A stretch of 64,000 bases of DNA from Pyrocephalus nanus (Eukaryota > Chordata > Aves > Passeriformes > Tyrannidae): contig CM076272.1 in assembly GCA_038380795.1 (NCBI GenBank), forward strand, positions 2,051,001-2,115,000, read 5' to 3'. A model generated the notes under the pieces. That model had not been told where the DNA came from and ran no database searches. It saw nothing but the letters and a program-made list of their open reading frames with translations. A program made the translations under genes and the position numbers. Shown piece by piece: positions 26,001-63,687 of this stretch. Each line of letters opens with the position of its first letter. Positions within the stretch are counted from its first letter, which is position 1.

Positions 26001-26315
26001 TGCAGACATGAATGCAGTAGACACTGCTTGTTTATGCAATGATGTTTCTTTTAAGTAAACTTGTATGTGAAGATTAATATTTTATGCTGGCAGTGTGGGC
26101 TGCCTCAATAATTTGGAAGTCAAGAAGATACCATCCTAACATTTACTTGAATTTTACTTCTACTGTAAAAATAATGGAGATATTTTGATGCAATGCTGGC
26201 TGTTGTATTTTTTATTTGCAGTTTAGTTCACTGCACAGAGCTGAGAACAGTCTTGTTCCATTTTTATCCTATGGATCCCAGTACTGTCCTGTTATAGGAC
26301 AGTTACTGGGATAGG

Positions 26316-26347
<32 letters not shown>

Positions 26348-29300
26348 CCCAATACAGTCCTGTAACTGCATTTCAGGTGGAAGTCCAGATGTATGTGTTT
26401 TCTTTTACAGGATGACAAGCTTTCAGCATAACTTTGAAAGGAAAAGTGTTGCAATTCTGGTGGACAGTAGTTAATTCTAAATATTTTTTTCAATCTGAGA
26501 GGAGGTTTTTATTGTATTTATGAATTTGGTAATATTTTGAAAAATATAGGTGTGCTTGAACCATGGAGGGTTCTGATATTTGTTCTGTGTCTCCCTATCC
26601 ACCTGCTCCATCTTCACAGTGGCAAAGTTGAGAGAATGTTAATATTTTATTCATTATGACAGCATAACTCTCTTTTTGATTCTTGGGTCCCTTTGGTGGG
26701 TGCAACACTAAACCCTCAGACTAAATTACATTTTAGACCTTCCCTGCTGAGAAAAACAAAGTCCTGAATTCCACTTTTTGGAGGTAATCAGTCTTTCAGT
26801 CAGTTCTGAAGTACCAAACACAAAGAGTTTACAAGAAGTACAGATCTTTTTTGTCTCCAGACTCTGGTGTTTAGTGGCCTAGCGGGTTTTTTGTGCATGA
26901 GAGGTAAAGTGATCCGTGTAGGAACCCTGCTCTCCTGAAAGAGGACTCTTGTAAATTTGTTTCTCTGTGCACAGACAGTTGGCACAGAAGAAGAAAGGCT
27001 GCCCTGTTTATATATTTGCATAATATGTTTGCTGTGCTCATTTAATCCCAGACAGAGTGTGCAGGTCAGATTTCCTACCCAGTTAGTCTCCTTGTTATCC
27101 CTTAAAGGGGCACAGTTATCTGTGAGTGTGTGTGTTCCTGGCTGATGGAAAAATAAGTAACTGTTAAGAAAATCCTTTTCTAGTCTTTCTTTTTGTGATG
27201 CTGTTTCTGTTTAAAAAGCAAACCAGACTTACTGTGCTGGTGCATGAGCATCAGAAAATGAGATTACTTAGTACTATTATTTTGCATTCTACAGTCAGTA
27301 ACAAACAAAGAGAGAGTAAAAAGCCTTGAGTTCTTAGTTTACTCACAGAAAGTGTCAGAAGTAAAGAAACTTGGGCTTTTTTCCTGTTTGCTGCCCTGGA
27401 ATTCCTCCAGTGCAGTGAGGGCCTCCAAACCCAGGCTGAGATTGTGCAGCCCTGGGGAAGGGGCAGCACCAGCATTCCCAGAGCAGGGAATACATTCCCT
27501 GGGGAAGGGGCAGCACCAGCATTCCCAGAGCAGGCAATACATTCCCTGGGGAAGGGGCAGCACCAGCATTCCCAGAGCAGGGAATACATTCCTTGGGAAG
27601 GGGCAGCACCAGCATTCCCAGAGCAGGCAATACATTCCCTGGGGAAGGGGCAGCACCAGCATTCCCAGAGCAGGGAATACATTCCCTGGGGAGGGGGCAG
27701 CACCAGCATTCCCAGAGCAGGGAATACATTCCCTGGGGAAGGGGCAGCACCAGCATTCCCAGAGCAGGCAATACATTCCCTGGGGAAGGGGCAGCACCAG
27801 CATTCCCAGAGCAGGGAATACATTCCCTGGGGAAGGGGCAGCACCAGCATTCCCAGAGCAGGGAATACATTCCCTGGGGAGGGGGCAGCACCAGCATTCC
27901 CAGAGCAGGCAATACATTCCCTGGGGAAGGGGCAGCACCAGCATTCCCAGAGCAGGCAATACATTCCCTGGGGAAGGGGCAGCACCAGCATTCCCAGAGC
28001 AGGGAATACATTCCCTGGGGAAGGGGCAGCACCAGCATTCCCAGAGCAGGGAATACATTCCCTGGGGAAGGGGCAGCACCAGCATTCCCAGAGCAGGGAA
28101 TACATTCCCTGGGGAAGGGGCAGCACCAGCATTCCCAGAGCAGGGAATACATTCCTTGGGGAGGGGGCAGCACCAGCATTCCCAGAGCAGGGAATACATT
28201 CCCTGGGGAAGGGGCAGCACCAGCATTCCCAGAGCAGGGAATACATTCCCTGGGGAAGGGGCAGCACCAGCATTCCCAGAGCAGGGAATACATTCCCTGG
28301 GGAGGGGGCAGCACCAGCATTCCCAGAGCAGGGAATACATTCCCTGGGGAAGGGGCAGCACCAGCATTCCCAGAGCAGGGAATACATTCCCTGGGGAAGG
28401 GGCAGCACCAGCATTCCCAGAGCAGGGAATACATTCCCTGGGGAAGGGGCAGCACCAGCATTCCCAGAGCAGGGAATACATTCCCTGGGGAAGGGGCAGC
28501 ACCAGCATTCCCAGAGCAGGGAATACATTCCCTGGGGAAGGGGCAGCACCAGCATTCCCAGAGCAGGGAATACATTCCTTGGGGAAGGGGCAGCACCAGC
28601 ATTCCCAGAGCAGGGAATACATTCCCTGGCCTGCTGCCATCTGGGAAGCAAAGGAGGCCAGAAGAGCCCAGGCCTTGGAGGGAGCAGAGCTACTAAAAAT
28701 AGAAAGTGTGTGGAGAGGAAAATACCCTGCAAAGCCACACAAGGGACCCTCTGCAAGGTGTAGGATTGGTTCTGCCCCATTGCAGGACATTGTGGAACAC
28801 ACTGTGGAACTGCTGGGTGCAAAAAAGGGGCTTTGTTTCTTTGGGATAATCCCGAGGATCACAAATTGAACATCTGTTTTGAGTGGCAGCTTGACAGATA
28901 GGATGTAATTGCTCAGCAATTTACCTCTAAGGTGTGTGGGCTTAGCAAATTGAAGTTACTGAAACATAAACTGCTACTTACTCTGTTTACTGGGTTTATC
29001 CAAAATAGATTCATGGCAGTGGTGTTGTTTCAGGTAGTAGTGCTAAGCCCTCAGTGTTGCAAGAGGGGTGGTTTAAGAGACCTGCCCATTAAAAAGACAA
29101 ATAGAAGAAGCTTGTCTTGATTTTAAGTAAATCTTCCAATTACTTTTCCATTGTTGCACGGACTCTGACATTTACTGATGTATTTAGTTTTATTCTTCCA
29201 CCTTGGGGAAGGTGCTGAACTAACCTGTGAAAATAAGCTTACTGTGATCTTTAGGGTATGGTCCTCCATTCAGCAGGAGGACCTTTCTTTACTTTCTCAA

Positions 29301-32300
29301 CTCTGTATCCTCCTCAGGAATTTAGTTTGAATTAACATCAGCAATACTGCAGATTTGTGCAACAAGGAGTGTTGGAGATTCCAGCTGTGCCTCGAGTCAG
29401 TAGCTTGATTAAATTAGGAAGCAAGGGTGGATCTGCTCCAGCAGGAGTAACCTGAGGTGACCATGGTGTATTTTGCATTTGAGTTGCTCTTGTGCCAAAA
29501 GGACGTGGATACAGCTCTGATATTAAACATTTCCAAAGGTAGTTTTCTTCACAGGACCAAGTTCAGTTGCCTGCCAGAATTTAAAGCAGCAGTTTGATGC
29601 TTCACAGCAAGGGCTGACAAACAGTGGGAGCTGAGCTCCCTTCGTGGGATGTGGGGAAGGGAGGCCATGACAAGTGTCTGCTCCCTTTTTGCCCCAGTGC
29701 TTCCAAAATTCCTGGGGCAGTGTTAACCCTTCTCTTCCCCTGCTGTTTCTCGTGGCAGGCTGCAGGTTATGAGGTGGCTGGGCTGGCTCTTGGCTGACCC
29801 TGCCCTGCTGGGCCAGGGATGTGCAGCTCCTGCTGCCAACCTCCCTGCTCAGGCCTCTCCCTGTGGATCCCTACTGACTGCAGCATTTGTTGCCTTGGTT
29901 TTAAGGCATTTTTGTCCTTCCTTTCCCTCCCCTCTCTGCTGCCTTTCCTTCAGGAATGGAATACTGGATGATCTTTAAGGTCCCTTCCAACCCAAGCCAT
30001 TCTATGCTTCATTCTGTGCTTCATTCTCTGATTCTGTGACAAGAAGGTCCCTATCTGGGACCTCTATTCCCTCTTCTTGTGAGGGCAAGAAATGCAAAGG
30101 GTGTAAAATACAGCAGAGCAGCAGGAGCTGATGCCATCTGGTAGCAATGACAGTTTGCTGTGCTGTCCTTTTCTTCCTTCAGTGTGGTGTGTGCTCTGGG
30201 ACTTCTCGTGTCAGCAGAACACTGAAATAAGGTGTGGGGGTTTTTCCAGACCCTCCCCTTTTAGCAGTGTCTGTGACCTTGGCCTTTGTGCACTGTATGA
30301 GGTGTTACAAGCCCACACTTTGAATAATAAATTATAATGAAGGTTTTTGCTGCTTGGGAAAGGTGAGTTCCTTGTGGAACGTTACAGGATTGCAGACTTT
30401 TGTAACCCTCACAGTTTTGATTTGATTTCACTTTACATTTGCCTTGAGGGATCAGCTTTGCTCTCTTTTTCAGCTCAGTCACTGACTTGTGCACACTTAC
30501 CTTGAAAAAGCTCAAAATACTGCCTGAAGTTTTGTCATAAGAGTGTCTGTATAAAAACTAAAGAGCCACTGATGTTTGTGGTTAAAGCACGAGGTGGAAG
30601 TTGCCACAGACTGCTGGCCCAACTCTGGAAAACTCCCACGATCTCTTAGTTCATCTTCCCTAACAGCACAAACTTGGATGCTGTGTGTGTGTTTGTCTGT
30701 CGAGCACTTCAGATTTCAGTGCTGGCTTTGCAGTGTTGAAGTAGTTAAAAAATCTATAAAATCTTTTTTATTCTGTTTACTGGGTGTCAGTTGATCTTTT
30801 CTGATAAATTCATACTGATGCTGCTTTTGGTTGAGCTGGAATTCTGCCTTGAGACAGGCAGTGCCCTGTGCTTCTGATGGCTAATAAAGAACTGAACTGG
30901 AAATAAAAATATGCAATAAGGTGGTGCCTGTACCCTCTTTTGCTGCAGGGTAGTTCCTGGAGGGAACCAGGCTGGGTGTGTGGGTGTTGTGCTGCCCAGT
31001 TCCCCTCAGAATCTCTCCTGGCTCCCTTCAGTGCTTCCCACACTCAGGCTGGTGTGGTCTGAAGCTCCCTCACGACTGTTTTTCTTGCAGTTATCGCTGT
31101 GATGACTTCGTAGTCAACGATACCAAGCTGGGCCTGGTACAGAAGGTCAGGGAGCACCTACAGAACTTGGAAAAGTGAGTAGCTCCTCTGCATCCACACT
31201 GCTTTGGGTGGCCTTGTAGTGGTATTTCTGTTTTATATGTGTATATGTACCTAACATGTATGTTTTGGTGCTTGCTGTGTGTGGGGGACACTGTGTATGT
31301 TTAAATAACCTCTTCATCAGGAGGTGCAGAACAAATGGATTTGGCTGATCTCATCATTCTCGTGTCTCACACAGTAAATCTTGCAGAAGCAGCATGTGAT
31401 GAAACAGGAATTTAGATATCAATTAACTGTCTTCCCAGCTAGACAATAATTACTGTCTTTTTCCATTTAAATGGGAGAGATTTTTCAGAACAGAACAGAA
31501 ATAGGTTTGTCAAAAAAAAACAGAGTAAATTTGGGTTTTTTTATCTGAGAAATTGAAGTGAAAACAGAGGTGGAAGTAGTCTTCATATTAATTATATAGT
31601 TTGTGTTGCAAACCAAAAGATTATTTTATTATATATTTTCATTCTTTTCCACTATTTTTTGGTGGCCTTCTCAGGTGTATAATGAGATGTAAAGATGGTA
31701 AAGCATAATGAGAAGTGCACATTAGTATTTTGGAAATGACCAGGAAATCGATCTTTTTTGGGAGGTAAATGATACTGTGGAGGCTTCCATTCTGTGTAAT
31801 GACAGTTTTTAAACTTTTGGAGGGCTTTCTAATTAAAAAAAAAACCAAAAAACAACACAACCAAAACAACAATAAAAAAAACCCCAAACTAAAAAAACCC
31901 CACCCAAAAATCCAACCAAAACAGCCTAACTGAAGCTTGGAACAAGGTTTGGTGTCACCGTTACATGACAGAGAAATCATCAACTCAAATAATTGAGGGG
32001 CCACTGATTTCCAGGGATGTGCAAGAGAGTAATTGTTCTTGTAACTTAGTGTTACACAAGTGTTATAACCTCTTGTGTTTTTATTGAAGTGAGAGAAGTC
32101 GGCTGTAACACAGAAGTGTATTTTGGATTTTTGGGAACTTAACTTTGTCCTGATTTTCTTGAAGTTGTCTTTCTGATGGTTCTTCTGACAGAAGTATTTT
32201 ATGGAAAATTCTGTGTGAATTATTTCTTTGATGAAGGGAAAAGATCAATATTTTAGGTGACAAGTAGCCTGCTCCTAAGGCAACTCTTCAGGGCACGTTG

Positions 32301-41300: not shown

Positions 41301-44300
41301 GTACCTCTCTGATGTGGTTTTGTCTAGAAATGGAGCATCTACTGTTGTCACAGCCATTTTTGGAGGCATTCTACAAAATGAAGTCAACTGCCTAATATGT
41401 GGGACTGAATCTAGAAAGTTTGACCCATTCCTAGGTAAGGTGCCTCTCGCTTCCAAAACACCCCGTGACTGAGGGCAGGAAATAAATCTGGGGCTGGATA
41501 GATGTAGATGTCACAGGACTGAACCAGAGTTTCAGCCTGGAAAGACCTGGTGTTGTTTTATTCACATTTCATTCATTTCTGTTTTAATCTTTGCTTTTCC
41601 AGACCTTTCCCTAGATATTCCAAGTCAGTTCAGAAACAAACGTTCTAAAAACCAAGAAAGTGGACCAATGTGCACGCTACGAGGTAAGGGAGCCTGGCCA
41701 GGGGAATCAGTCATCACCAGAGTGTACTCAGAGGGCTGGGGCTTGGTGCCTTCTCATTTTCCAAAATTCTGTGCTAGGAGGGGCCAAAATAATTTTCCCT
41801 GAAGGCCTTACCCAGTCATCATGTCTTGACATCGTGCTCTGATGACCTGGGGCCTGGGGGTGCTTCAGGAGGTCACTTCAATTTGCAGCAGAGGTTTTTC
41901 TCTCTAGTCAGAGTATTTCTGATGCATCTCAGTCTTTCCCAGCAGCTCCCCTGCATTGTGGGCACTGCCAAGGCTCAGCAGCACGAGCCCTTGCCCGCAG
42001 GAGGGATGATGGCTCTGGGGGTTCTGCTTGTTAAACAACAAATGCAGTGCAGCAGCTTGGGCAGCAGCTCTTCCTGACCCTTTACAGCATGGTAATTTCT
42101 ACAGATGTGTCATTGTACTGGCTGCAGATTGGGAAATACTGATATTGCATCTGTTCACTTCATATCTAAACCAAACCACCTTCCAGAGTTGAACATGCTT
42201 CTTTAAGAAGTCAGTCAGCTTTCTTTGAAACCAGCTGTGCTTAATTGGGCAGAAGTTTGTTGGAAAAACGGAGATTTTTGTGAATGCCTTTTTTTTTTTC
42301 TTAAAAACTACTTGCAGGTGTTTTCAGGATCATGTTACAACATGGCTTTGTATTCAGACAGTGCACAGGTGGATATAACTAGAGTGACTGCAGCCCATGC
42401 TCAGCTGTGTTGCTGCATTGGTTGTATTTCACGTTACAAAAACAGCTCAGTGTCATCTTCAATCAGGTTTCTTGCTGTGGTTGTGTTCAGTGGTTTTGCA
42501 TCTCGCTCTTTTTCAGATTGTCTTCGCAGTTTTACAGACCTGGAGGAACTTGATGAGACAGAGCTGTACATGTGTCACAAATGCAAAAAGAAACAGAAGT
42601 CCACCAAAAAATTCTGGATTCAGAAACTACCAAAGGTTTGTGTAGGCACGAAAAGGAGCGGGGTGTGAGCGTGTGCTCAGCCAATCCCTGGCCCTGCCAG
42701 GCTGCTGCAGGGCTGAGTCCATCCCTTGCTGTGACTCTGCCTTCCCTCCCTGTGCCCTGCAGGTGCTATGCTTACACTTGAAACGCTTTCACTGGACAGC
42801 ATATCTGAGGAACAAGGTCGATACATATGTTGAGTTTCCCTTACGAGGCCTAGACATGAAATGCTACTTGTTAGAGGTAAGGAGGCTCACCAGCACTGCC
42901 TGCACACTTTTGTTCCGTCACATTTATTACAAATGACAGTAGGTGCTCTGGAGATTTGAAGAGTTTTCTGTTTTTCCAACCACAGCCTGAAAACAGTGGC
43001 CCAGAAAGTTGCCTGTATGACCTCGTGGCTGTGGTTGTGCATCATGGCTCAGGGTGAGTACTGGAGCTGTGCTGGCACAGACCTTCTCCCACTCAATGCA
43101 GAGTTAATGAAGGGTTTTCTGTCCCCAGAGAATGTATTTTAACTGCTGGAAATGAGCAGTAATTTATGAACTGGCATGGAACTAAATTTAGATTACCTTC
43201 AGATGGCTCTGTACAGTTACTGCTGTGAATGCCCACGGGCACTCCTCGGGGTTAATGACTAGGAGTGTGAGGTGGAATGAAAACAGCGAGCCCTGAACCA
43301 AGAGAGTGAATCAGGGGACCTTTCAGGAGGTGATGCCTCATGTTGAAATTCTCAGTACAAACCAGAAAGTGCATGTGCACTTGGGCTAAAGGAGAGTGTG
43401 CGTGCTGAGATGGGCACTGTGAAGGCACTTACCCACTCTCACCTGTCCTCCCCACAGTCCTGCCCCAGGGCTGGCTACTGCTCATATTTTGAAGTAAAAA
43501 AATTGGTGGGTATTTTTTAACTTTTCCCAGCCCTGACAGCTCTGTTGAGAGTAACAGGAGTAGGGACAAGACAGCTGTTTATCCTGAGAGAAGCGTGTCC
43601 TTGTTCAGGCAGTCACTCTGGGGGTGAGCTGTGAAAGGAGTTTTCTTAAAGAAATTAAACCCCATCAAGACCTTGCTGATACCTGAATTGAAGTCTCAGT
43701 TCTGTGCAGAAAGCCCCTCCCTTTGTTTTCTCCAGAGGAAGGGTCTGAACTCCTGGATTTGACTACTGAGGGCAGCCCATGTAGTGACACAAATTTCCCT
43801 CTTGATACTCTGGGAATAGGTTTGTTGTGACTGCTTTTGGTTATATTCATGCAATGTGAGTGTCTCCAGCCTGAAATGGGGAAGATTTCTGAAAACAGAG
43901 TGGAGTGAGATTTTTATAGCTAATGCTTAAATAACAGACAATGGACTGGATTTGTACCTAAGCAGATATGAAGTTCAGTGTTGCAGGAAGCCTTGCACAA
44001 AACCTGTGGGGTTTTATATAAAAAACCCTTTAAACTCCTCCTAGTAAGTGATTATTTTCCTTAATATAAAATCTTAACTTGGAGCTGCAAAGGTGATTAT
44101 TTTACTTAATATCTTAACCTGGAACTGCACAGCTCAAGCAGGGAAGCACCTTCCCAACTGCTGTGGGGGCTGTCAGTGCCTGGTTCGTGGCAGTGTCTCA
44201 GCCCTGGCAGGCAGTGATTGGGGTGAGATGCTGTGTGTGACTGTGTCAGGATCAGGGTTATACTCTGTGTGACTGTGTCTCTGGCAGGGTGTGCTGTGTT

Positions 44301-45704
44301 GTGGCTGTGTCTGGCAGGGTGAGGGGCTCTGTGTGATCGTGTCTCTCTACCAGGGTGGGCTCTGTGTGACATTGTCTCTCTGGCAGGGTGGAATCTGTGT
44401 GTCTCTCTGGCAGGGTGGGCTCTGTGTGTCACTCTGGCAGGGTGAGGGGCTCTGTGTGTCTCTCTGGCAGGGTGAGGGGGCTCTGTGTGACTGTCACTCT
44501 GTCAGGGTGGGCTCTGTATGACGTTGTGTCTCTGGCAGGGTGTGCTGTGTTGTGGCTGTGTCTGGCAGGATGTGCTCTGTGTGTCTCTCTGGCAGGGTGA
44601 GGTGCTCTGTGTGTCTCTCTGACAGGGTGGGCTCTGTGTGACTCTGTCTCTCTGGCAGGGTGGGCTCTGTATGACGTTGTCTCTCTGGCAGGGTGGGCTC
44701 TGTGTGACTCTGTCTCTCTGGCAGGGTGGGCTCTGTATGATGTTGTCTCTCTGGCAGGGTGGGCTCTGTATGATGTTGTCTCTCTGGCAGGGTGAGGGGC
44801 TCTGTATGACTCTGTCTCTCTGGCAGGGTGGGCTCTGTGTGACTCTGTCTCTCTGGCAGGGTGGGCTCTGTGTGACTGTGTCTCTCTGGCAGGGTGGGCT
44901 CTGTATGACGTTGTCTCTCTGGCAGGGTGGGCTCTGTATGATGTTGTCTCTCTGGCAGGGTGGGCTCTGTGTGACTGTCTCTCCGGCAGGGTGGGCTCTG
45001 TATGATGATGTCTCTCTGGCAGGATCAGGGTGGGCTCTGTGTGACGTCTCTCTAGCAGGATGTACTCTGTGTGTCTCTCTGGCAGGGTGGGCTCTGTATG
45101 ATGATGTCTCTCTGGCAGGATCAGGGTGGGCTCTGTGTGACGTCTCTCTAGCAGGATGTACTCTGTGTGTCTCTCTGGCAGGGTGGGCTCTGTATGACGT
45201 TGTCTCTCTGGCAGGGTGGGCTCTGTGTGACTGTCTCTCTGGCAGGGTGGGCTCTGTATGATGTTGTCTCTCTGGCAGGGTGAGGGGCTCTGTATGACTC
45301 TGTCTCTCTGGCAGGGTGGGCTCTGTGTGACTCTGTCTCTCTGGCAGGATGTGCTCTGTGTCTCTCTGGCAGGGTGAGGGGCTCTGTGTGACTCTGTCTC
45401 TCTGGCAGGGTGGGCTCTGTATGATGTTGTCTCTCTGGCAGGGTGAGGGGCTCTGTGTGACTCTGTCTCTCTGGCAGGGTGGGCTCTGTGTCTCTCTGGC
45501 AGGGTGAGGGGCTCTGTGTGACTCTGTCTCTCCGGCAGGGTGGGCTCTGGCCATTACACGGCGTATGCAGCGCACGAGGGCCGCTGGTTCCACTTCAACG
45601 ACAGCACTGTGACCCTGACGGACGAGGAGACGGTGGGCAAGGCCAAGGCCTACATCCTGTTCTACGTGGAGCGCCAGGCCCGGCCCGGCGCCGACAAACT
45701 CTGA
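7937..45704 (+). CDS. USP3: Ubiquitin carboxyl-terminal hydrolase 3 (complete, 15 coding exons)
   Basis: USP3 is a nuclear cysteine-protease deubiquitinase known for removing monoubiquitin from histones H2A and H2B, with roles in the DNA-damage response and S-phase progression. Joining the 15 exons (each listed separately) gives 1563 bases, or 520 codons plus stop. That equals the length I recall for mammalian USP3, and near-identity is seen throughout. The N-terminal ZnF-UBP domain (about residues 3-105) has C29, C32, C41, C44, C49, H56, H60, C85, C88, C95 and C98. The USP domain runs from about 159 to 511. Its Cys box [18 protein letters not shown] contains catalytic C168, QQQDAHEF lies at 257-264, and zinc-type C324/C327 and C385/C388 pairs follow. 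The His box GSGHYTAY contains H471, and FND at 485-487 supplies the third triad position. All introns are GT-AG and all phases agree. The start matches the conserved MECPHL N-terminus. No truncation or frameshift was found. The main oddity is the minisatellite abutting exon 15. Confidence 0.98.
16077..16156. repeat. Three-copy 27-bp tandem repeat
   Basis: Three consecutive units of the form CAGTGTCCACCC-AGGGCTGGCACAGG, 26, 27 and 27 bases long, with one indel and a CG/CT difference between copies. It lies in USP3 intron 1 within the reversed-skew block. Confidence 0.9.
19050..19390. promoter_or_regulatory. CpG-rich patch in USP3 intron 1, possible antisense promoter
   Basis: This is a GC-rich island in AT-rich intron. 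It contains GGACGTTG, GGGGGCGGTGCCCGAGCC, GGCGGGTCCCC, and a CAG run followed by CGACACGG. It lies at the high-coordinate edge of the reversed-skew block, where the promoter of a minus-strand transcript would be expected. Serine- and proline-rich open frames here come from the CAG/CTG-rich composition. The function is inference. Confidence 0.35.
22247..22307 (+). CDS. USP3: USP3 exon 2
   Basis: Encodes residues 31-51 ([21 protein letters not shown]) of the ZnF-UBP finger, with C32, C41, C44 and C49. The acceptor is TTTTTTCCAG and the donor is GTGAGT. The exon is 61 bases long, entering at phase 1 and leaving at phase 2. Confidence 0.97.
22308..23873. other. USP3 intron 2
   Basis: 1.57 kb of T-rich intron with a poly(T) run near 23806-23820 shortly before the acceptor. 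No repeat element or additional exon was recognised. Confidence 0.85.
23874..24005 (+). CDS. USP3: USP3 exon 3
   Basis: Encodes residues 51-95, from [14 protein letters not shown] to CSSYSTYC. It includes zinc-ligand candidates H56, H60, C85 and C88. The acceptor is TTTCTTTTAG and the donor is GTAAGG. The exon has 132 bases and phase 2 is kept at both ends. Confidence 0.97.
26278..26309. repeat. Imperfect inverted repeat (hairpin)
   Basis: The left arm CCAGTACTGTCCT (26278-26290) pairs with the right arm AGGACAGTTACTGG (26296-26309). There is one bulged base and a five-base loop, GTTAT. A second, diverged copy of the left arm lies just past the adjacent TA microsatellite, near 26350. The function is unknown. 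Confidence 0.8.
26319..26345. repeat. (TA)n microsatellite
   Basis: About 13 TA dinucleotides preceded by GTGTG, within USP3 intron 3. Confidence 0.92.
27454..28627. repeat. 47-bp minisatellite, 25 copies, in USP3 intron 3
   Basis: There are twenty-five head-to-tail units of 47 bases, with one 46-base unit near 27595; 25 x 47 minus 1 equals the observed 1174 bases. Each unit opens with GGGGAAGGGGCAGCACCAGC, continues with ATTCCCAGAGCAGGGAATAC and closes with ATTCCCT. Variants are few: GGGAAT/GGCAAT, GGGGAAGG/GGGGAGGG and CCCT/CCTT. Because 47 is not a multiple of three and the unit has no stop in any frame, it makes overlapping open frames of about 370-530 codons in all six frames. These frames are artefacts of the repeat, not genes. 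The G-runs and the GGGAAT/ATTCCC arms could allow non-B structures. Confidence 0.97.
29953..30040 (+). mobile_element. CR1 LINE 3' tail fragment
   Basis: GGATGATCTTTAAGGTCCCT followed by TCCAACCCAAGCCATTCTAT is the terminal CR1 motif. Degenerate 3' octamer repeats of the ATTCTRTG type follow, ending near ATTCTGTGAC. Only about 88 bases remain. Confidence 0.88.
31091..31174 (+). CDS. USP3: USP3 exon 4
   Basis: Encodes residues 95-123 ([16 protein letters not shown] to HLQNLE), completing the ZnF-UBP domain with C98. The acceptor is TTTCTTGCAG and the donor is GTGAGT. The exon has 84 bases. Confidence 0.97.
31175..32517. other. USP3 intron 4
   Basis: 1.34 kb of AT-rich intron that includes an A/C-rich low-complexity tract (listed separately). 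No exon or recognisable element was found. Confidence 0.85.
31835..31924. repeat. A/C-rich low-complexity tract
   Basis: Interspersed A8-A9, AACAAC, CCCCAAA and CCAAAA blocks with almost no G or T, inside an otherwise T-rich intron. It may be a decayed poly(A) tail of a retroposon, but no body was recognised. Confidence 0.8.
32518..32599 (+). CDS. USP3: USP3 exon 5
   Basis: Encodes residues 123-150 ([18 protein letters not shown] to LLKVN), the linker between the zinc finger and the catalytic domain. It contains a basic RHRKRK cluster that could act in nuclear localisation (inference). The acceptor is TTTCCAACAG and the donor is GTAAGT. It ends at phase 0. Confidence 0.97.
32600..34310. other. 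USP3 intron 5
   Basis: 1.7 kb of intron. No additional exon or mobile element was recognised. Confidence 0.8.
34311..34393 (+). CDS. USP3: USP3 exon 6 (catalytic Cys box)
   Basis: Encodes residues 151-178, with [19 protein letters not shown]168 is the catalytic nucleophile by family knowledge. The acceptor is TCCTTTGCAG and the donor is GTACTC, which is weaker at its +4 to +6 positions than the other donors of this gene. Confidence 0.97.
34394..35110. other. USP3 intron 6
   Basis: 717 bases. The last 20 before the acceptor are a strong pyrimidine tract. Nothing else was recognised. Confidence 0.85.
35111..35224 (+). CDS. USP3: USP3 exon 7
   Basis: Encodes residues 178-216 ([20 protein letters not shown] to QGDNN) of the USP fold. 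The acceptor is TTTTCCCTAG and the donor is GTAAGC. The exon has 114 bases. Confidence 0.97.
35225..35833. other. USP3 intron 7
   Basis: 609 bases of ordinary intron; nothing else was recognised. Confidence 0.85.
35834..35947 (+). CDS. USP3: USP3 exon 8
   Basis: Encodes residues 216-254 ([20 protein letters not shown] to MPNFR). The acceptor is CTTTCCAG and the donor is GTAAGT. The exon has 114 bases. Confidence 0.97.
35948..39317. other. USP3 intron 8
   Basis: 3.4 kb. A poly(A) run of about 15 lies just after the donor (near 35958), and a GTG-rich imperfect repeat lies near 38356-38384. No coding exon or clear transposon was found. Part of 36.2-37.1 kb looks somewhat A/C-rich, but the trend is weaker than in intron 1. 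Confidence 0.75.
39318..39464 (+). CDS. USP3: USP3 exon 9
   Basis: Encodes residues 254-303, with the QQQDAHEF box (257-264) typical of USP enzymes and then [10 protein letters not shown]. The acceptor is CTGTCCCCAG and the donor is GTGAGG. The exon has 147 bases. Confidence 0.97.
39465..41327. other. USP3 intron 9
   Basis: 1.86 kb. A small tandem duplication of GTTGTGTAGCCACTAAA occurs at about 41120-41160, about 170 bases before exon 10. Nothing else was recognised. Confidence 0.8.
41328..41434 (+). CDS. USP3: USP3 exon 10
   Basis: Encodes residues 303-339 ([20 protein letters not shown] to FDPFL), with the first USP-domain CxxC pair, C324/C327. The acceptor is TTTTGTCTAG and the donor is GTAAGG. 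Confidence 0.97.
41603..41683 (+). CDS. USP3: USP3 exon 11
   Basis: Encodes residues 339-366 ([20 protein letters not shown] to CTLR). The acceptor is CTTTTCCAG and the donor is GTAAGG. It is separated from exon 10 by a 168-base intron. Confidence 0.96.
41684..42516. other. USP3 intron 11
   Basis: 833 bases of ordinary intron with a T10 run near 42290. No element was recognised. Confidence 0.85.
42517..42635 (+). CDS. USP3: USP3 exon 12
   Basis: Encodes residues 366-405 ([20 protein letters not shown] to IQKLPK), with the second CxxC pair, C385/C388. The acceptor is CTCTTTTTCAG. The donor is AAG|GTTTGT, which departs from the GTRAGT consensus at +3 and +4. It is short-spaced (127 bases) from exon 13. 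Confidence 0.96.
42763..42876 (+). CDS. USP3: USP3 exon 13
   Basis: Encodes residues 406-443 ([20 protein letters not shown] to MKCYLLE), containing the LKRF motif common in USP domains. The acceptor is CCCTGCAG and the donor is GTAAGG. Phase 0 at both ends. Confidence 0.97.
42986..43053 (+). CDS. USP3: USP3 exon 14
   Basis: Encodes residues 444-466 ([20 protein letters not shown], then GSG). The acceptor is CCAACCACAG and the donor is GTGAGT. The exon is only 68 bases and ends at phase 2, so the next exon begins with the third base of the G466 codon. Confidence 0.97.
43054..45538. other. USP3 intron 14 (2.5 kb)
   Basis: The first 1.2 kb is ordinary intron. A near-duplicate of about 45 bases at 44045-44130 (GTGATTATTTT...CTTAATAT...) precedes the exon-junction minisatellite, which fills the second half right up to exon 15. 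Confidence 0.9.
44045..44130. repeat. Two-copy imperfect tandem duplication
   Basis: GTGATTATTTTCCTTAATAT... is followed by a second copy, GTGATTATTTTACTTAATAT..., each ending in GAGCTGCA/GAACTGCA. The copies are about 40-46 bases long, with a small indel between them. Confidence 0.8.
44232..45549 (+). repeat. Splice-acceptor minisatellite (about 40 copies) abutting USP3 exon 15
   Basis: About 40 tandem copies, mostly 33 bases with shorter and longer variants. Each typical unit has a pyrimidine-rich stretch, then CTCTCTGGCAG, then GGTGGGCTCTG, then TGTGAC or TATGAC/TATGATG. This is the intron 14/exon 15 boundary itself. The real acceptor reads CTCTCCGGCAG at 45528-45538, and exon 15 opens GGTGGGCTCTG, so the last copy overlaps coding codons 466-469. 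A sub-type reads GGCAGGGTGAGGGGCTCTG, and others read GGCAGGATG. The 430-codon minus-strand and 207-codon plus-strand frames here are repeat artefacts. Confidence 0.96.
45539..45704 (+). CDS. USP3: USP3 exon 15 (coding part, catalytic His box)
   Basis: Encodes residues 466-520 ([17 protein letters not shown] onward, ending GADKL) and the stop at 45702-45704. It carries catalytic H471 and the FND motif at 485-487. The acceptor is CTCTCCGGCAG, the last member of the adjacent minisatellite. Use of this acceptor keeps the frame and the conserved sequence. The high third-position GC here contrasts with the rest of the gene. Confidence 0.97.
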
Positions 45705-45881
45705 TACCTCCTTCTCAGTCTCACTTATCGAGTCCACCGGACAAAACATTTCCATTTCTCCATAAATACTTGATCCAAGACTTATTGATTTCATTGTGCA
45801 CTTTGCAATTTCCTCTTGTGGGTTTTAGTTTTGTTGTGTCGATGGTAGCATTTGACTTACTGAACTTGGACACAAACTAAC

Positions 45882-50637: not shown

Positions 50638-50972
50638 ATGCACATCACCCAGCTGAACCGGGAATGCCTCCTGCACCTCTTCTCCTTCCTGGACAAAAAC
50701 AGCAGGAAAAATTTAGCAAAAACGTGTCACAAGTTGCTAGAAGTGTTTGAGGATCCTCTGCTGTGGTCTTTGTTGAACTTTCATTCTCCAGTGGAACTAA
50801 AGAAAGATAATTTTCTCCTGGGACCTGCTTTAAAACACTTATCCATCTGCTGGTACTCCGAGAGAGTCAAGGTGTGTAACATTGAGGACTGGATGAAAAA
50901 CAGTTTCCAGAGAGACTTCTGTAAGAGGCATGAGAACACTGTCAGGGATTTTTTGCTACAGGTTTGCAACAG
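50638..50972 (+). CDS. FBXL22: FBXL22 exon 1
   Basis: Encodes residues 1-112, covering the F-box and a linker with the motifs [20 protein letters not shown] and DFLLQVCNR. The donor is CAACAG|GTACGT at 50973. It ends at phase 2, inside the R112 codon. Reading through the donor hits a stop after YVLWV, which confirms the splice. Confidence 0.95.
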
Positions 50973-53281
50973 GTACGTTCTTTGGGTGTGACTGTGCAGG
51001 ATCCCTGCCTTGAAATGAGTGCAATGAGAGAAGTGAGAGCTGCTGATGACCTTACTTTTAAAATACTCCAGCCAACCTGCCTGAAATGGAGCGTGAAGTA
51101 CATGAGTGCTTTCCCTTTACAATTTAAATACAATGTTAAGTTCATGTGATGGTGGCAGTAATGAATACTTCATATTGACTTAAGTCTATTTTTCCTATTT
51201 TTTTTTGAAGAATGACTAATTAATATGGGAAAGTGCAGTAGTGCCCCCCACACTGCTGCTGACCTGACCCCCACCCTTCGGGCAGTGGCTGGGGGTGGGT
51301 CAGGGGAAAGTCACAATTTCAAACAGCAAATACATCTTACAGCCAAGTTCATTAATCATTTAACTAAACATCAGGTTCATTTCATTCTAAGAAATAAGTA
51401 TTGCTTTTATACTGAACTTTAGCTCGATTAAACTGCACTAAGGGAAGAGGAAAAGCAGCCCTGGGTGCAGAGCATTTCTTACAACAGCTTTGTTTTACAA
51501 AGCAGCTCTAATCAAAGATCCACCCCGTCAGGAGGTGGCAGTGCCTGCCCTGTCAGGGTTCACCCCAGTGCCACAGCCAGCCCAAAATCCCGGGATCCCG
51601 ACAGGACATGATGTCTGGGGAGAGGCAGCACCACAGCTCAAAACAAGGACAGGGATTCAAAACAGGGCCATAAATCCCAAGTACCAAATTCCAGAAGTAA
51701 CTGTTCTAGAACTGATAAAAATCTGGATTAATAAATAAGCAAAGGATCAGCACACCTGCTCCTACAAAGGATAACACAAGCAGTCATTGGAAGCATTCCA
51801 ACAAAACTCCCGGCATTCAAATGCAAATTAAACATCCAGCTTTTCTCCCTGAGCCAGAAGTACTTTTGTTGAAGGCTCCAGGGATGGGAGGTCAGAGCCT
51901 TTCTTGACCCTGCCAGCTTTTTTTCTCCAACTGTTCCTAACTAGAGTAACAAACCAAACCCATGCAGTGCCGTGATCTCACTCATTCCCTCAGCTCCAAA
52001 GGTGAGGTCAGGCAGCAGCAGGGACGGGGTGGGGTGTGCAGACAGGAACGTGCTGAGCACCCGTTTTTAAGGACAGATGACCCCCTGTTTGCCCCTCCCT
52101 GCTGTTGTACCCCTGAAAGCACGAGCTGTGACACAGATCTGCCCATGGAAGTGCCCAGGGACACCACAGTTCTGACAGGATGGGAGAGGCTCGAGCTCTG
52201 CCCATGACTGCTGATGGAGGAACAGGAGGCCGTGCAGATGAACTCACACCTGGAGAGGTGAGCAGGAACCAGACACTGCACTCAGGGTGGGCACAGGGGT
52301 CCTGCCTGCTCAGCACAAAGAGCTGCTCCAGGTCTGGCTCAGGGACAGCCACTGGAAGTGCCAACAGCCTTTCCTGAGCTTCCCCAGCAGCTCAAAATAA
52401 AGCTGTTTCCATTTGCTGCATCCCTGTTTGCCAGTGGAGCTCTCACCACTTTCAGTGACCCAAAGGAGAATTTAGGACCTGTGTGGGGTTCAAACAGCAA
52501 CACTCTCAGGTAGCAGCACCCATTCAGTAAATCCAAGGAGCTCAAACAGACCTGTAATTCCTGAAAATCCAGAGTGGGAGTGTCTTACCTGCCCACATCC
52601 AGCAGTCTGTTCTCTCGGCTGTCCTCACCTTCCTCCTGAAATCAATCTCACCACTGCCTGTGCCTCCCTAAGAAAACAACGGAGCTGCAGCTCAAAGAGG
52701 CCCCCACAGCCCCTTCTGCACTGCCAGCTGAGCTGGAGGTGCTGCCACCACCACAGAAAGCACAGGAGGTAAAAGCTCTGCCATTAGTGAAGATTAAGAT
52801 GTCCATGTGCCCCCACCTACTCGTGCCTTTTGGCCCCTGCTGATGAAGAGGGGTTTCTCTAGAGTTCATGTTTACTCCTGACACCATCAGGATTGATTTC
52901 TCCCGCCACCTCACCTGTTGCCATCGCGTTTCCAGGTGCCCAAACCTGCTGTCCCTGACGCTGTCTGGGTGTGGCCACGTGACAGATGACTCCATCCTGC
53001 TGCTGCTCAGGAGCTGCCCCAAGCTGAGGACGCTCCGACTGGAGAACTGCGCGCGGATCACGGACGGGACCCTGCGGGCAGTGACGCTGCACGGGGGGGC
53101 CCTGCACACCCTGCACCTGGATTTCTGCAGGAACATAACACAGGCTGGGCTGCAGGGGCTCAGGGAGCAGCGTCCTGCACTGATGCTGAGAGCAGAGAGG
53201 AGTGCCAGCATGATCCCAGACAGCCAGCCAGGGAAAAAGCTGAGGATTGAAAGAGCATCAAGAAAGGTGGTTCAGCTGTAG
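50638..53281 (+). CDS. FBXL22: F-box and leucine-rich repeat protein 22 (complete, two exons)
   Basis: FBXL22 is a substrate-recognition subunit of SCF (SKP1-CUL1-F-box) ubiquitin ligases. It is known as a sarcomere-associated protein of heart and skeletal muscle that promotes turnover of alpha-actinin and filamin C. Exon 1 (50638-50972) and exon 2 (52936-53281) join to 681 bases: 226 codons plus stop. The F-box occupies about residues 1-45 ([20 protein letters not shown] onward, with a WSLL end). A linker follows. Leucine-rich repeats from about 112 include [20 protein letters not shown], then [20 protein letters not shown] and [20 protein letters not shown]. The start is the conserved MHITQL. 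Both splice sites are GT-AG with matching phase. It lies 3' to USP3 on the same strand and tail-to-tail with HERC1, as in human. No defects were seen. Confidence 0.95.
50973..52935. other. FBXL22 intron
   Basis: 1.96 kb, A/C-rich on the plus strand. No repeat family or additional exon was recognised. Short open frames here are unsupported. Confidence 0.8.
52936..53281 (+). CDS. FBXL22: FBXL22 exon 2
   Basis: Encodes residues 112-226 with three to four leucine-rich repeats, then the tail [20 protein letters not shown], ending VVQL and TAG. The acceptor is GCGTTTCCAG. The local base composition is GC-rich. The 187-codon minus-strand frame over this region (52648-53211) is its shadow. Confidence 0.95.
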
Positions 53282-56600: not shown

Positions 56601-58030
56601 TAAACCTTTCTGCCACTTTTCTGTCAGGACTGTTTGGGGTGGGGGGTTGTAGTTTGGGGTTTTTTACTACACAGAGCTAAAAAGGATCTTTAAACACCCT
56701 CTTGGTTTCTTTGCCTGTTTACATACAAATGCTCAAAGTCATTCTCCTTGGCTCTTCCCCAACATGAACAGGGGTATTTGTTCATGACATGGTAAAATCT
56801 GAACACAATTGTGTTCAAATTGATACATTTTTTTCAGTATCAATAACAAATTTTCTCACTTAGCAATCTGATTTGAAAATTGAGTATATAAAGTGATTAC
56901 ATTTTACTCAGGGTATGATGAAGGATGAAAACAGGCCTGTGGTTCTCTTTAGCTCCAAGCCATTAAAATTCCATCAAACACAATCCCTTAATCAACATCA
57001 ATATTTACCAATATCAACATCCTCTTTCACTTTCTGTAAACTGCCTCCAAAAACACCCTCATTACCCAAGAAGGCAATTGCAGAGTCCATTTAAAACTGC
57101 AATTTTTAGGCACAGCTCTGTTGTTTCCTTTGCCTGACTGAGACAGGCTGACAACTCAGCAGCACTGAGACACCTCAGTGAGGTCTAGCAGGCAGGAACA
57201 CAGGACTTAGAGGGGATAAAAATCCCCTTTTATCTGTAATACTGTAGTTTTTATGTATGACACCCCTAAATCCAGGCCACAATGTGAATGCACTGCCCCC
57301 AACACAGCGATGGGACACCAAAAACTCAGTCCAGTTTGGAACAGAACACAGAGTGAGGAAGGAAACAGGATCTGCTTGATTTCAGGGCCCTGAGCCCCTC
57401 CTTCCCCCCACCCTGCAGTGTGGGGGTCACAGCTACAAACCTTGTGCCTTCTCCACCAGCCAACAACTAGTCCTGACTGAGAGAAAATCACCAGTAAAAC
57501 CCAGAGCTGCACAGTCCTGCAGCTTAGCAAGCTCTGAGCACTCTGAGCTGTTCAGTCTTGGACAGCCAGGAATTCCCCAATCCATCCTTGGGAACACACA
57601 GTGAAAATGTGAGGAGAAACAGCAGGAATTTCTGCCTGTGCTCCAGCCTCAGATGGGCCAGTGGTGTCCCAGGTGAGGTGGCACTGATGAACACCCCCAG
57701 CAGCCCCCAGGAGCTCAGAGAGGATGAGGGTGATGGGAACGGGGGCAGAGCAGCCCTGACTCACCTGGGGACGCTCTCCAGCTCAATCCTGCTCCTCACA
57801 CCAAGCAGCATTCCTGGTTTGACACAAATGAGCTCTTTCCTACACTGGGAATTATCCATCACCCAGCACTCAGCGAGGACAGGGAGCAGAGAGGTTCCTC
57901 TGGGCAGCACCTTCCTGTCCTAACCCAGGATGAAACTCCAGAGCACCCCAAACCGCGCTGATCATGGCAGGTACAGCTGCAACAAAAGGAGAGCAAAGCA
58001 GAGCCAAAAACGTGCATGAACCCCCAGCCT
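53636..58030. other. Intergenic region between FBXL22 and HERC1 3' ends
   Basis: No gene was recognised. The plus strand is A/C-rich. Open frames of 146 codons (minus, 53857-54297) and 191 codons (plus, 56105-56680) show no family resemblance and are about what chance gives in 64 kb. Short direct repeats such as TGGAGATAAACTGGAGATAA near 54251 occur. Confidence 0.65.
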
Positions 58031-58040
58031 CGACTGCTGC

Positions 58041-59120
58041 CCTGTCACCTCCACTGCCGCCTTGTCACCTCCACTGCCGTCCTGTCACCTCCACTGCCGC
58101 CCTGTCACCTCCACTGCCGCCCTGTCACCTCCACTGCCGCCCTGTCACCTCCACTGCCGCCCTGTCACCTCCACTGCCGCCCTGTCACCTCCACTGCCGC
58201 CCTGTCACCTCCACTGCCGCCCTGTCACCTCCACTGCCGCCCTGTCACCTCCACTGCCGCCCTGTCACCTCCACTGCCGTCCTGTCACCTCCACTGCCGT
58301 CCTGTCACCTCCACTGCCGCCCTGTCACCTCCACTGCCGCCCTGTCACCTCCACTGCCGCCCTGTCACCTCCACTGCCGCCCTGTCACCTCCACTGCCGC
58401 CCTGTCACCTCCACTGCCGTCCTGTCACCTCCACTGCCGCCCTGTCACCTCCACTGCCGCCCTGTCACCTCCACTGCCGCCCTGTCACCTCCACTGCCGC
58501 CTTGTCACCTCCACTGCCGTCCTGTCACCTCCACTGCCGCCTTGTCACCTCCACTGCCGTCCTGTCACCTCCACTGCTGCCTTGTCACCTCCACTGCCGT
58601 CCTGTCACCTCCACTGCTGCCTTGTCACCTCCACTGCCGTCCTGTCACCTCCACTGCCGCCCTGTCACCTCCACTGCCGCCCTGTCACCTCCACTGCCGC
58701 CCTGTCACCTCCACTGCCGCCCTGTCACCTCCACTGCCGCCCTGTCACCTCCACTGCCGCCCTGTCACCTCCACTGCCGCCCTGTCACCTCCACTGCCGC
58801 CCTGTCACCTCCACTGCCGCCCTGTCACCTCCACTGCCGTCCTGTCACCTCCACTGCCGTCCTGTCACCTCCACTGCCGCCCTGTCACCTCCACTGCCGC
58901 CCTGTCACCTCCACTGCCGTCCTGTCACCTCCACTGCCGCCCTGTCACCTCCACTGCCGCCCTGTCACCTCCACTGCCGTCCTGTCACCTCCACTGCCGT
59001 CCTGTCACCTCCACTGCTGCCTTGTCACCTCCACTGCCGTCTTGTCACCTCCACTGCTGCCCTGTCACCTCCACTGCTGTCCTGTCACCTCCACTGCCGC
59101 CCTGTCACCTCCACTGCCAG
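58041..59120. repeat. 20-bp minisatellite, 54 copies
   Basis: Fifty-four units of CCTGTCACCTCCACTGCCGC fill exactly 1080 bases with no insertion or deletion. Apart from the last unit (ending GCCAG), variation is only C-to-T at unit positions 2, 18 and 20. Around 58501-58640 two unit types alternate, giving a 40-bp higher-order pattern. A partial unit (CGACTGCTGC) precedes the array. All three plus-strand frames are open (371-414 codons) because 20 is not a multiple of three and the unit lacks stops; these are not genes. It ends about 0.4 kb from the probable HERC1 poly(A) site. Confidence 0.98.
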
Positions 59121-59883: not shown

Positions 59884-60050
59884 ACATTTAGAGTAACTAA
59901 AATGCGGCCACCACCTATTAACATCTGGGTTTTTGTTTTTTTTTTTTTATGCTCCTAAAACATCTATGGTTACTGTAAAATTATGGCGACGATGACTCGC
60001 ACTCGGGGCGCTATCTGTAGGAAAAGGAAGGTGATTTTGTTCACAGAGTG

Positions 60051-60236
60051 TCAGTAATCCGTGTCGGAGCCCTCGGCATTGTCCACGTTGCGGGAGAGCA
60101 TGTAATTGTCCATGTCGATGGAGCGGCAGTTGTTGATTGCATAGCGCAGGCGCTCGGCCATCACCAGCTGGCTGGAGTACGGGGGCAGCCGCAGTTGAAA
60201 GAAACAAGTCTGTGAGGTAGGCAAGCTGTCGTAAGG
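60051..60236 (-). CDS. HERC1: HERC1 last coding exon (catalytic Cys)
   Basis: Encodes PYDSLPTSQTCFFQLRLPPY to the stop, 61 residues. The acceptor on the minus strand is CCCCACAG. It holds the HECT active-site cysteine in SQTCFFQLRLP. It begins at phase 0. Confidence 0.97.
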   Translation of the reverse strand, partial: PYDSLPTSQTCFFQLRLPPYSSQLVMAERLRYAINNCRSIDMDNYMLSRNVDNAEGSDTDY

Positions 60237-63200
60237 CTGTGGGGACGGACACAAGGGGGACACTGCTGAGCTGGGATCGTGGAAAACACGCAATGCACCC
60301 GCATTTCACTGCTCCTGCCCACACCGCTCTGCACCCTCACAGTCAATCACAGAATCAGCTGGGTTGGGAAAGATCTCTGAGATCATCGAGTCCAGGCCTT
60401 GATCCAACCCCGCCGTGGTTCCCAGCCCATGGCACTGAGGACACATCCAGTCTGTCCTTAAACAGCTCCAGGGATGGAGAATCCACCCCTCCCTGGGCAG
60501 CCCATTCCAAGGGCTGAGCACTCTCTATGTAAAAATTTCTTCCTGATATCCAACCCAAACCTCCCCTGGCCCAGCTCCAGACCGAGCCCTCTTGTCCTAC
60601 TGCTGGTTCCTGGGAGAAGAGACCAATCCCCACCTGGCTTCCCCCTCCTGTCAGGGAGTTGTAGAGTGCTGAGGTCTCCCCTGAGCCCCCTCCTCTCCAG
60701 GCTGAGCCCCCCCAGCTCCCTCAGCCTCTCCTCACAGCACTTGTGCTCCAGTCCCTTCCCCAGCTCTGTTCCCTTCTCTGCCCCTGCTCCAGCCCCTCCA
60801 TGTCCTTCCTGAGCTGAGGGCCCAGAACTGGACACAGCACTCCAGGGGTGGCCTCACCAGCTCTGAGTGCACTCCATCCCCTCATGCAGATCATCAGGGA
60901 AGAAATTATTCCAGCCCCAAATTCCTTTTTGGAAGTGGATTGGCCTCCCTCATTTACAGCATTTGTTTCATCCTTAAGTATGTGCAAACCCACTGCTGGG
61001 TCAGCTGCTCTGTAAATAACTCAACCCACTGATGAGACTCAGCTGACCCCCCTGCTCAGCAATCTGTACCAAGCAATGCTCAATTCCAAACCAGAGCGAG
61101 CCTGAGCATCAGAGACACCCTCCCAAAGATGACAGACACACCACTGCCATCTTCCCTTCTGTCAGGCTGTCCATAGACAACCTGCTTTCACTGCACAAGG
61201 CCCCAAAATAATGCCAAATGAACGCAGCCTGTGTGGAAAATAACTCCCTGTGAACTCCCTGCAGTGGTTTTAAAATGTTATACTTCACTACTGGTCATGT
61301 GGTGCCACTTAGGCAAAATTAACACTTAAAAACAGAACGAAAATTGCCAAATGATAAAAGGGATTGGAACAGAAAATCGCTGGGGGCAAGTTACAATAGA
61401 AGAAGGTTTGTTGTCTTGACCTCCAGTCTCTGACTGCACCACGTTAATTAAGATGCAATTCATGCAGTCCATGTCCTGCTGCACAATCAAAATGTCTGGG
61501 CATAACTCAGACCACCTCCCATCCCATGCTTTTTCTTTAAATTTAGAACAATGCAAACTGTCTCCTATTGGCAAAGGACAGACCATACTAGAGATGAATA
61601 AAAAAGCAATAATAATTTAAAAAAAAGCCAAATAAAGCGGGCAACTTACCCTATCAACCTTCATTATTTGGAATCGCTGAGAGATATCAGCTGTGTTGGC
61701 TGGCAGTCGAGATCTTCCCGACACAAACCTCATGAAAAGGACTCTCTCCTCATTGGAAAACTCCTCCAGGGTGTGCCAGAACCACTGCACCAGCTGATGC
61801 TGCTCATCCACCTCCCTGTATCGCACCACTTTCTTCAGAACTTCAACGGAGATTTCCGGCATCCCACAGACCATCTGCTCCAACTGCTTGGCAGTCAGGA
61901 GGGACAGCAAAGGAACGGGAACAATCCAGGACATTCCCTCCCTGACAGCAGCCACCTGTTGGCCAGAAACAGAGCAGATATTTGAAGTGCAATTGTCCCA
62001 CCTCTGCCACTTCTGGACCATGTTCTCCTTCTGCAAGATTTAGGAGTTGGGTTTGGTGACACTGATGAGAAAGCTGCTTTTTCTGACACTGATAATACCA
62101 CACATGCATCTCTCTCTTGTAATTAATATCACAAGGCTCACTGATCAAATGGCAAACAGGTGGTGAACACTTCCCAAAACACATCATGGAATATTTGCAG
62201 TGTTTGTGTCACAGCAGAAGAGAAACAGCTTCAAATTAAACAAATGTCTGTTGATAATATTTACTTTAGGTAGGCTCTGTATTGTTAAAATGTCCAGTTA
62301 TAGTTAAAATATATATAGTTATAATATATATATTATATACTCTAATGTAGACAAGCTCTGACTTCCAATGCTCTTCTGCCAACTGAGCAATGACTGAGAA
62401 AAACGAATTTAAAAGAAAACCCCAAACAGTTTGTGGGGCAAGAAAAGCCGTGGGGACACGGTCAGGATGCAGAAAGCCAAGCTTTTCTTCCCAAAATCTG
62501 TGATGGAATCTGGGATAAATCACCCCCCTGTCCCCACCACCAGCAGGGATGGGTCCCAAGGAGCCTCACCTGCCGGTCCATCTCATGGAGTCTGTACTCA
62601 ATCGCCCTCTCCACGTACTCTTTCCTGTTTGAAAAGGTAAGTGGGATACTGTTCCCTCCAGGGATTATGGGAACCATTTTACCATCAGCACTTTGGCCAA
62701 CAAAAGAATCTAAAGGAATCATCTGTGATGAAAAAACAGGAAAAGCATGTTCAGTGTAAGTCACTCCAGTTTAACTTTTTCCTATAAGTCACCTAGAACT
62801 GCAGATGGTAAGATCACAAACTATCCTAAATGCACACTAAGTGCTTGTTATGCCAAGAATGGAGACTGAAATCATTTAAATCTTGAAGTGAAGGTCAATC
62901 TGATAAAAGGAACCACTCCCAGAATAAACCTGAAAGCTTCAACCTTCCCATCTTACCTCATGGAAATTGTCTTCAGTAATCCCACTGTCTTCAATGTGAA
63001 GAATGCTGTTGAGGGTCTGCACATAGAGCAGATCTACCTCCTCCAAATCCTCCAAGATGAGTGGGATACAACAGAGTTGCTTCCAGACCATTGGAGCCAA
63101 ATGAAGATCTAATGGCTTTTTGGTACGAATTGCCACCCCCATGAGAATGCCCAAGAACTTGAACTGCATCAGGTGCTCATCTAAACACGCTGAAGGGTTA

Positions 63201-63531: not shown

Positions 63532-63687
63532 GGATAACAAACCTGTGTCAGAACTATTGTACAGGATAACAAACCTGTGTCAGAACTATTGTACAGGATA
63601 ACAAACCTGTGTCAGAACTACTGTACAGGATAACAAACCTGTGTCAGAATTATTGTACAGGATAACAAACCTGTGTCAGAACTATTA
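63532..63687. repeat. 32-bp tandem repeat, about 4.9 copies, in HERC1 intron
   Basis: Units start GGATAACAAACCTGTGTCAG at 63532, 63564, 63596, 63628 and 63660, exactly 32 bases apart. Only a few substitutions separate them (ACTATT/ACTACT/ATTATT). The nearest edge is 38 bases from the acceptor of the neighbouring HERC1 exon. Confidence 0.96.

Follow-up and report, generated by a model that had tools for sequence, protein, structure and literature searches.

The stretch of Pyrocephalus nanus DNA analysed here (64,000 nucleotides, hereafter the window) carries the gene USP3 on its forward strand. Its fifteen coding exons, bounded by GT-AG, were mapped on the DNA with human USP3 as a guide and together give a frame of 520 amino acids. 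The best protein-search match was the USP3 cluster of Oenanthe melanoleuca (98% identity over 100%). Pfam domains were assigned on this top relative rather than on the window protein itself and comprise zf-UBP (residues 29-105) and UCH (159-508); the best solved-structure matches of the UCH domain end at residues 509-511. C168 and H471, which have catalytic roles in human USP3, are both present in the translated protein. The combination of zf-UBP with a complete UCH domain containing the Cys and His boxes, as scanned on the Oenanthe relative, identifies the product as USP3. A predicted structure model was set aside for its mean pLDDT of 40.6.

Exon 14 (42986-43053) ends with ...GGC TCA GG in phase 2 and is followed by the donor gtgagt. 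Intron 14 extends over 43054-45538 and closes with the true 3' splice site CTCTCCGGCAG (45528-45538), and the coding part of exon 15 (45539-45701) includes H471 within GSGHYTAY. The stop codon TGA lies at 45702-45704, and the first AATAAA 3' of exon 15 was found at 46342. This exon map upholds the initial annotation with respect to the identity of the gene, the phase of exon 14 and the place of exon 15 as the final exon. The protein segment spanning the exon 14/15 junction is strongly conserved: HHGSG[V/I]GSGHYTAY occurs in 117 of the 120 listed vertebrate USP3 proteins, from birds to fish (114 with V and 3 with I), and an alignment of 21 proteins shows no variation at G464-G466 or G468-Y475. 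The three exceptions (P0035, P0080 and P0087) are annotated proteins altered near this junction. One of them, the gene model of Naja naja (P0087), has an insert of about 60 residues exactly there (GSGV...TVGSGHY), which is unrelated to the repeats described below and is probably retained intron sequence.

Downstream of USP3, two ORFs at 50638-53281 resemble FBXL22, with an F-box start followed by leucine-rich repeats. Antisense ORFs at 60000-63300 resemble the HECT-domain 3' end of HERC1.

Anatomy and origin of the array at the exon 15 boundary

Approximately 52% of intron 14, from position 44250 onward, is occupied by a minisatellite that crosses the boundary into exon 15. Tandem Repeats Finder placed it at 44263-45549 on the forward strand with a period of 33 bp, 40.2 copies and a score of 1008, and detected higher-order periods of 96 and 488 bp. 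The repeat unit consists of 22 intronic and 11 coding bases of exon 15, the latter being GGTGGGCTCTG (45539-45549). The array stops at exon base 11, so that its terminal unit is the real junction, CTCTCCGGCAG followed by GGTGGGCTCTG, after which the coding sequence runs on. Units were delimited by a segmentation anchored on the exon-derived motif at the unit end and independent of the AG. This yielded 42 segments, two of which were false splits within one unit type; merging them left 40 units including the real junction. The array therefore contains 39 decoy units, in line with the earlier proposal of about 39 decoy 3' splice sites, and the repeat was correctly said to hold the pyrimidine tract, the AG and 11 coding bases of exon 15. 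CAG/G (the slash marks the splice junction) is retained in 40/40 units though the spacer varies. When counted by CAG/G sites, the array has 42 decoys, with acceptor positions spanning 44288-45503, in addition to the true site; the excess over 39 reflects a second CAG in two units and one CAG ahead of the first unit.

The units are diverse, with 26 distinct types in 42 intervals, 17 of which measure 33 bp. The motif TCTCTCTGGCAG was found 28 times in the array and is absent from the remainder of the window, while GGTGGGCTCTG has 23 occurrences in the array and one outside it, in the real exon. A 23-base core of the unit has 17 exact matches in the genome (1.07 Gb), all within the USP3 array, and likewise 17 in the window. 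Among 39 genome matches no second copy, allele or retrocopy of USP3 was found that records the junction. The specificity of the array for a single boundary was also evident when 24-base sequences from all 28 USP3 splice boundaries were compared with the whole window on both strands, allowing up to 4 substitutions: the exon 15 acceptor has 25 near copies, whereas none exists for any of the remaining 13 acceptors or the 14 donors.

The structure corresponds to the 'mirages' described in amphioxus, which are minisatellite-like duplications of exon-intron boundaries (PMC3087553, PMC3902484). Its unit joins the end of the intron to the start of the exon at a real boundary, and its copies have been homogenised and rearranged in blocks, with a diverged edge. 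This edge is the mostly degenerate 5' part (~44250-44647), with the upstream units affected lying at about 44256-44626; it is presumably the older end of the array. Exact repeats of 117 bp at offsets of +96 (44985-45197) and +488 (44744-44860 and 45232-45348) point to later duplication of several units at once, as is typical of minisatellite turnover. We suggest that the array originated from the splice acceptor of exon 15 and would have expanded upstream into intron 14 via slippage or unequal exchange. In its coding half the unit specifies G-V-G-S, part of a motif whose conservation reaches as far as fish. This argues that the repeat derives from the exon, rather than the exon from the repeat; judged from sequence, the exon very probably predates the array and donated the repeat.

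Many units are 33 bp long with an open frame, and an antisense ORF of 430 amino acids (44502-45794, reverse strand) therefore runs across antisense exon 15 and most of the array. The array was rejected as coding sequence, as none of the 7992 candidates scored was a homologue of this ORF at E <= 10. An Rfam scan of the window gave 0 matches at gathering scores. Minisatellites of at least 150 bp number four in the 64-kb window, compared with five and zero in two 100-kb samples taken arbitrarily from its 21.3-Mb contig. The window also contains a 47-bp minisatellite (27450-28629; 25.1 copies, 97% match) in USP3 intron 3 (24006-31090), clear of any exon edge, and a 32-bp tandem repeat (63532-63686; 4.8 copies, 96% match). 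A 20-bp minisatellite downstream of USP3 (58028-59118; 54.5 copies, 95% match) is open in all three forward frames (ORFs of 371, 379 and 414 amino acids), since 20 is not a multiple of 3, and these overlapping ORFs are a likely source of spurious gene calls.

Decoy acceptors and their predicted products

The earlier description of the decoys as near copies of the real junction was confirmed. Over positions -13 to +11, 17 of the 42 decoys differ from the true acceptor by one base, and one decoy, at 44990, is identical to it (44977-45000). Over the longer interval from -30 to +11 none is identical and five differ by one base. The AG used as an acceptor is usually the first one past the branch point. 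Provided that no AG is skipped, the adenosine of TGTGAC at -18 (45521) would be the branch point of the true site, as no other A lies between the true AG and the AG before it. A UNA adenosine is found at -18 in 22/42 decoys and at -15 to -30 in 26/42, and is lacking from that range in 16/42. The typical unit thus appears to be a self-contained 3' splice site with a candidate branch adenosine at -18, a pyrimidine tract and CAG/G, and the copies have, as in a mirage, retained their splice signals (CAGG in 40/40 units, the -18 adenosine in 22/42 decoys). With the -18 adenosine limited to 22 of the 42, about half of the decoys are inexact equivalents of the true site.

Acceptors were scored with a small matrix built from the other 13 acceptors of USP3. 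The true site reaches 5.4 bits, compared to a range of -3.65 to 14.97 for the other 13 (leave-one-out), and 16 of the 42 decoys score at least as high as the true site, as do 342 of the 9228 AGs elsewhere in the window on both strands. Given the small matrix and these 342 sites, the decoy scores indicate similarity and not exceptional strength. The match between the decoys and the true site speaks as much for a mediocre true site as for strong decoys, and on this matrix the true acceptor does not stand out in strength.

The consequences of decoy use were predicted by translating exon 14 into each of the 42 decoy sites. Exactly half of the predicted proteins (21/42) have 470 residues and end in GSG-VGSV-stop; 29/42 fall between 470 and 472 residues and 13/42 between 479 and 599. 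The longest, from the decoy at 45478, reads exon 15 in another frame and continues into the 3' UTR. H471 and the His box are kept by none (0/42). The expectation of V-G-S-V and a stop in a protein of about 470 residues is consequently right for the commonest decoys and for the loss of H471, whereas the exact length of 470 applies to 21/42 and products of 479-599 residues arise from 13/42. Such a product would be without the end of the catalytic domain, because UCH extends over 159-508 and its solved matches end at 509-511. A stable USP3 of around 470 residues is therefore doubtful, and for the predicted protein, loss of both activity and stability is more likely than a clean dominant-negative effect. 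Decoy transcripts that retain the array would contain no downstream junction, and it is reasonable to expect that they could escape junction-dependent decay.

No annotated protein with an array-derived tail was detected at E <= 10 among the best 7995 word-sharing candidates scored. This is a weak test, as truncated forms can sit inside 90% clusters and the commonest tail is merely VGSV. The word SLWQG was discarded as a signature of the array, being present in 62/120 relatives solely as part of their own CSLWQG motif.

Comparison with described boundary repeats

In amphioxus, mirages are known at Adh3, TnC, the globin genes BflGb6 and BflGb9, and PGBD5 (PMC3087553, PMC3902484). RT-PCR suggests that regular splicing is undisturbed by them, although the copies could serve as cryptic sites (PMC3087553), and the passages on Adh and TnC state that these mirages yield no aberrant mRNAs (PMC3902484). 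BflGb6 has the same geometry as the USP3 array, with the 3' end of an intron and the 5' part of an exon repeated, and the amphioxus mirages as a group share with it the splice signals within the unit and the homogenisation typical of minisatellites. The dimensions are different, however: about 40 copies in USP3 against 6 and 3 in BflGb6, and a unit of 33 bp against 150-160 bp there, with Adh3 units of 10-72 bp. In contrast to the amphioxus cases as they are described, the USP3 unit forms an acceptor complete in itself, which belongs to the last coding exon and lies just 5' of the catalytic His; its host is a bird. Splicing and polymorphism were studied for the amphioxus mirages, while the USP3 array was characterised from its DNA sequence.

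The vertebrate precedents have their own differences. Repeats in intron 4 of trout irak3 (PMC6763605) involve four copies, and the likeness is limited by the fact that the relevant passages of that paper are silent on an acceptor within the unit and on the splicing of the copies. The human CBS 844ins68 allele duplicates the intron 7/exon 8 junction, and its distal copy is strongly favoured (PMC2630376); the wording in this source is 'splice donor sites', while the title of the cited Romano 2002 study refers to a 3' splice site. As in USP3, a junction has been duplicated in cis and near-identical sites compete, with one extra copy of 68 bp in CBS versus 39 decoy units. The same gene contains a length-polymorphic 31-bp VNTR, c.1444_1467+7, of 16-21 copies (PMC2630376). 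By our own reading of this notation it straddles an exon-intron boundary; it is thus close to the USP3 array in unit length and unlike it in lying on the donor side. A functional association of this VNTR was reportedly found by Lievers in 2001, to go by the title.

Minisatellite units also supply splice sites in IFI6, where, according to the title of the report, they are donor sites. A 38-bp VNTR in TERT intron 6 affects splicing to a non-functional isoform through its copy number (PMC3948165), but it is described as lying more than 1 kb from the junctions and working by RNA:RNA pairing rather than through acceptors of its own. In human paralogues, alternative splicing can arise from variable tandem repeats located at exon-intron boundaries (PMC2812944). 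Their units of about 30 bp resemble that of USP3, whereas their mean of 4 copies, their location in segmental duplications and their action via novel intron formation, as given in that source, do not. From the passages concerned, chicken MUC2 (PMC3549977) and bovine RTEL (PMC1831785) were judged irrelevant as parallels, and those of PMC4329672 contained nothing on the CBS duplication.

In the titles and abstract beginnings of the open-licence literature, whose bird-directed part covered passerine minisatellites and splicing and gave one off-topic title, no repeat of this kind was found at USP3 or in a bird. The statement that no such case had been described consequently stands for USP3 within that literature, but not for the kind of structure, which has been described, also in a vertebrate (trout irak3). 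The USP3 array is a mirage-type structure of an already known kind, here unusually large, clean and in a bird; its copy number is about sevenfold that of the amphioxus globin case. Minisatellites that duplicate a boundary, known from lancelets, trout and a few human loci, are thereby documented in an avian deubiquitinase gene as well.

Choice among the acceptors

Taking the DNA and the precedents together, we favour, with a probability of roughly 0.6, a mirage seeded from the exon 15 acceptor in which the last acceptor would be mainly used and the decoys would leak at a low level. Normal production of USP3 is assumed, as the frame is intact and conserved. Since the true site is barely distinguishable from the decoys by its local sequence, a preference for the last copy would have to depend on position or downstream context. 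The last acceptor is the only copy followed by a genuine terminal exon and a poly(A) signal, and may be preferred for this reason, so that normal mRNA would mainly be formed through it; each decoy is followed by 11 exon-like bases rich in G-runs and then by another acceptor. Leakage at the decoys would probably give a catalytically dead USP3 ending near residue 470. The amphioxus and human CBS precedents lead us to expect a dominant last acceptor with minor leakage and to rate regulation by decoys lower. The retention of CAGG in all units fits decoys without strong counter-selection; it could also follow from simple homogenisation. As a counterpoint, the similarity of the decoys equally permits the use of an earlier copy, and the earlier acceptors are transcribed first.

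The array contains 67 G-run blocks (52 per kb), compared to a density of 15.1 per kb across the remaining 13 introns of USP3 and to 41 blocks expected from its own base composition. These could bind hnRNP H/F, a suggestion based on the motif and on CBS, where hnRNP H is said to act at the 844ins68 duplication.

Several alternatives assign the decoys a larger or a different role. They might be used in more than about 10% of transcripts, with USP3 output depending on array length; such transcripts would carry an extended last exon without a downstream junction and encode mostly dead protein ending near residue 470. This is compatible with the 16 decoys that equal or outscore the true site, the 26 with a UNA adenosine at -15 to -30, the transcription of the decoys ahead of the true acceptor and the uniform loss of the His box, with 29 of 42 predicted ends at residues 470-472. 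Heavy use would however forfeit much USP3 activity and should select against decoy AGs, yet CAGG persists in 40/40 units; splicing is reportedly undisturbed by the amphioxus mirages (PMC3087553, PMC3902484), and the search for array-derived protein tails, weak as it is, returned none among its best 7995 word-sharing candidates. We regard substantial decoy use as rather unlikely. A working rheostat, in which a copy number variable between individuals would set the share of decoy transcripts and hence the balance between active USP3 and a dead, His-less form that bears the zinc finger, seems decidedly unlikely. The decoys could also be combined with donor-like sites into cassette exons or recursive splice points between exons 14 and 15. 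Nine AGG/GTGAGG sites on the forward strand (last exon base at 44318, 44441, 44471 [site 44469-44477], 44596, 44791, 45279, 45373, 45442 and 45503) score 9.8 against 10.0 for the exon 14 donor with a matrix of the 14 USP3 donors that was not leave-one-out. Six acceptor-donor combinations of up to 400 nt are in frame with exon 15 and would insert a peptide into the GSG/VGSG loop beside H471. These six are the only ones that keep the frame, and recursive splicing would leave one extra base and thus disrupt it, because AG and donor within one unit are one base apart. Moreover, seven array-type peptide words are absent from the 120 listed relatives, and the cobra insert at this junction is unrelated, which leaves this arrangement very improbable. 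As an observation in its own right, nine units show CAG/G/GTGAGG, an acceptor and a strong donor-like site separated by a single base in the manner of a recursive splice point.

RNA structure offers another route to the use of the last site: the AG of each unit would pair with the pyrimidine tract of the next, leaving the last AG, which has no following unit, freer. By inspection, pairing is possible between GGCAGGG and the CUCUGUC of the following unit, and of four 300-nt pieces, three gave better folds than mononucleotide shuffles (z ~ -2; the fourth -0.1). The true AG is predicted to be more open than 39/42 decoys with a folding window of 150 and 30/42 with 240, but only 22/42 with 80, and its predicted opening is tiny throughout (<=0.022). 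The true AG can pair with its own tract, and in two of three settings 32/42 and 35/42 decoys have a pyrimidine tract at least as open as that of the true site. Masking of the decoys by structure is thus very unlikely. Finally, the array might be an assembly artefact or its copy number wrong, as tandem arrays are often mis-sized and one draft amphioxus mirage was aberrantly assembled, according to the legend of an additional file (PMC3087553). Copy-and-paste would hardly leave 26 unit types in 42 intervals; the window is without N, and the contig that holds it measures 21.3 Mb in an assembly of 1.07 Gb and 153 contigs. Nor does the unit core have an exact match anywhere outside this array, which accounts for all 17. 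An artefact is accordingly most improbable.

The one real acceptor of USP3 exon 15 has in cis about 39 near-identical acceptor units, from which local sequence barely sets it apart. This constitutes a natural test of whether 3' splice-site choice follows synthesis order, proximity or the terminal exon. The joins to separate decoys differ in position, so that long RNA reads could reveal which copy is used.
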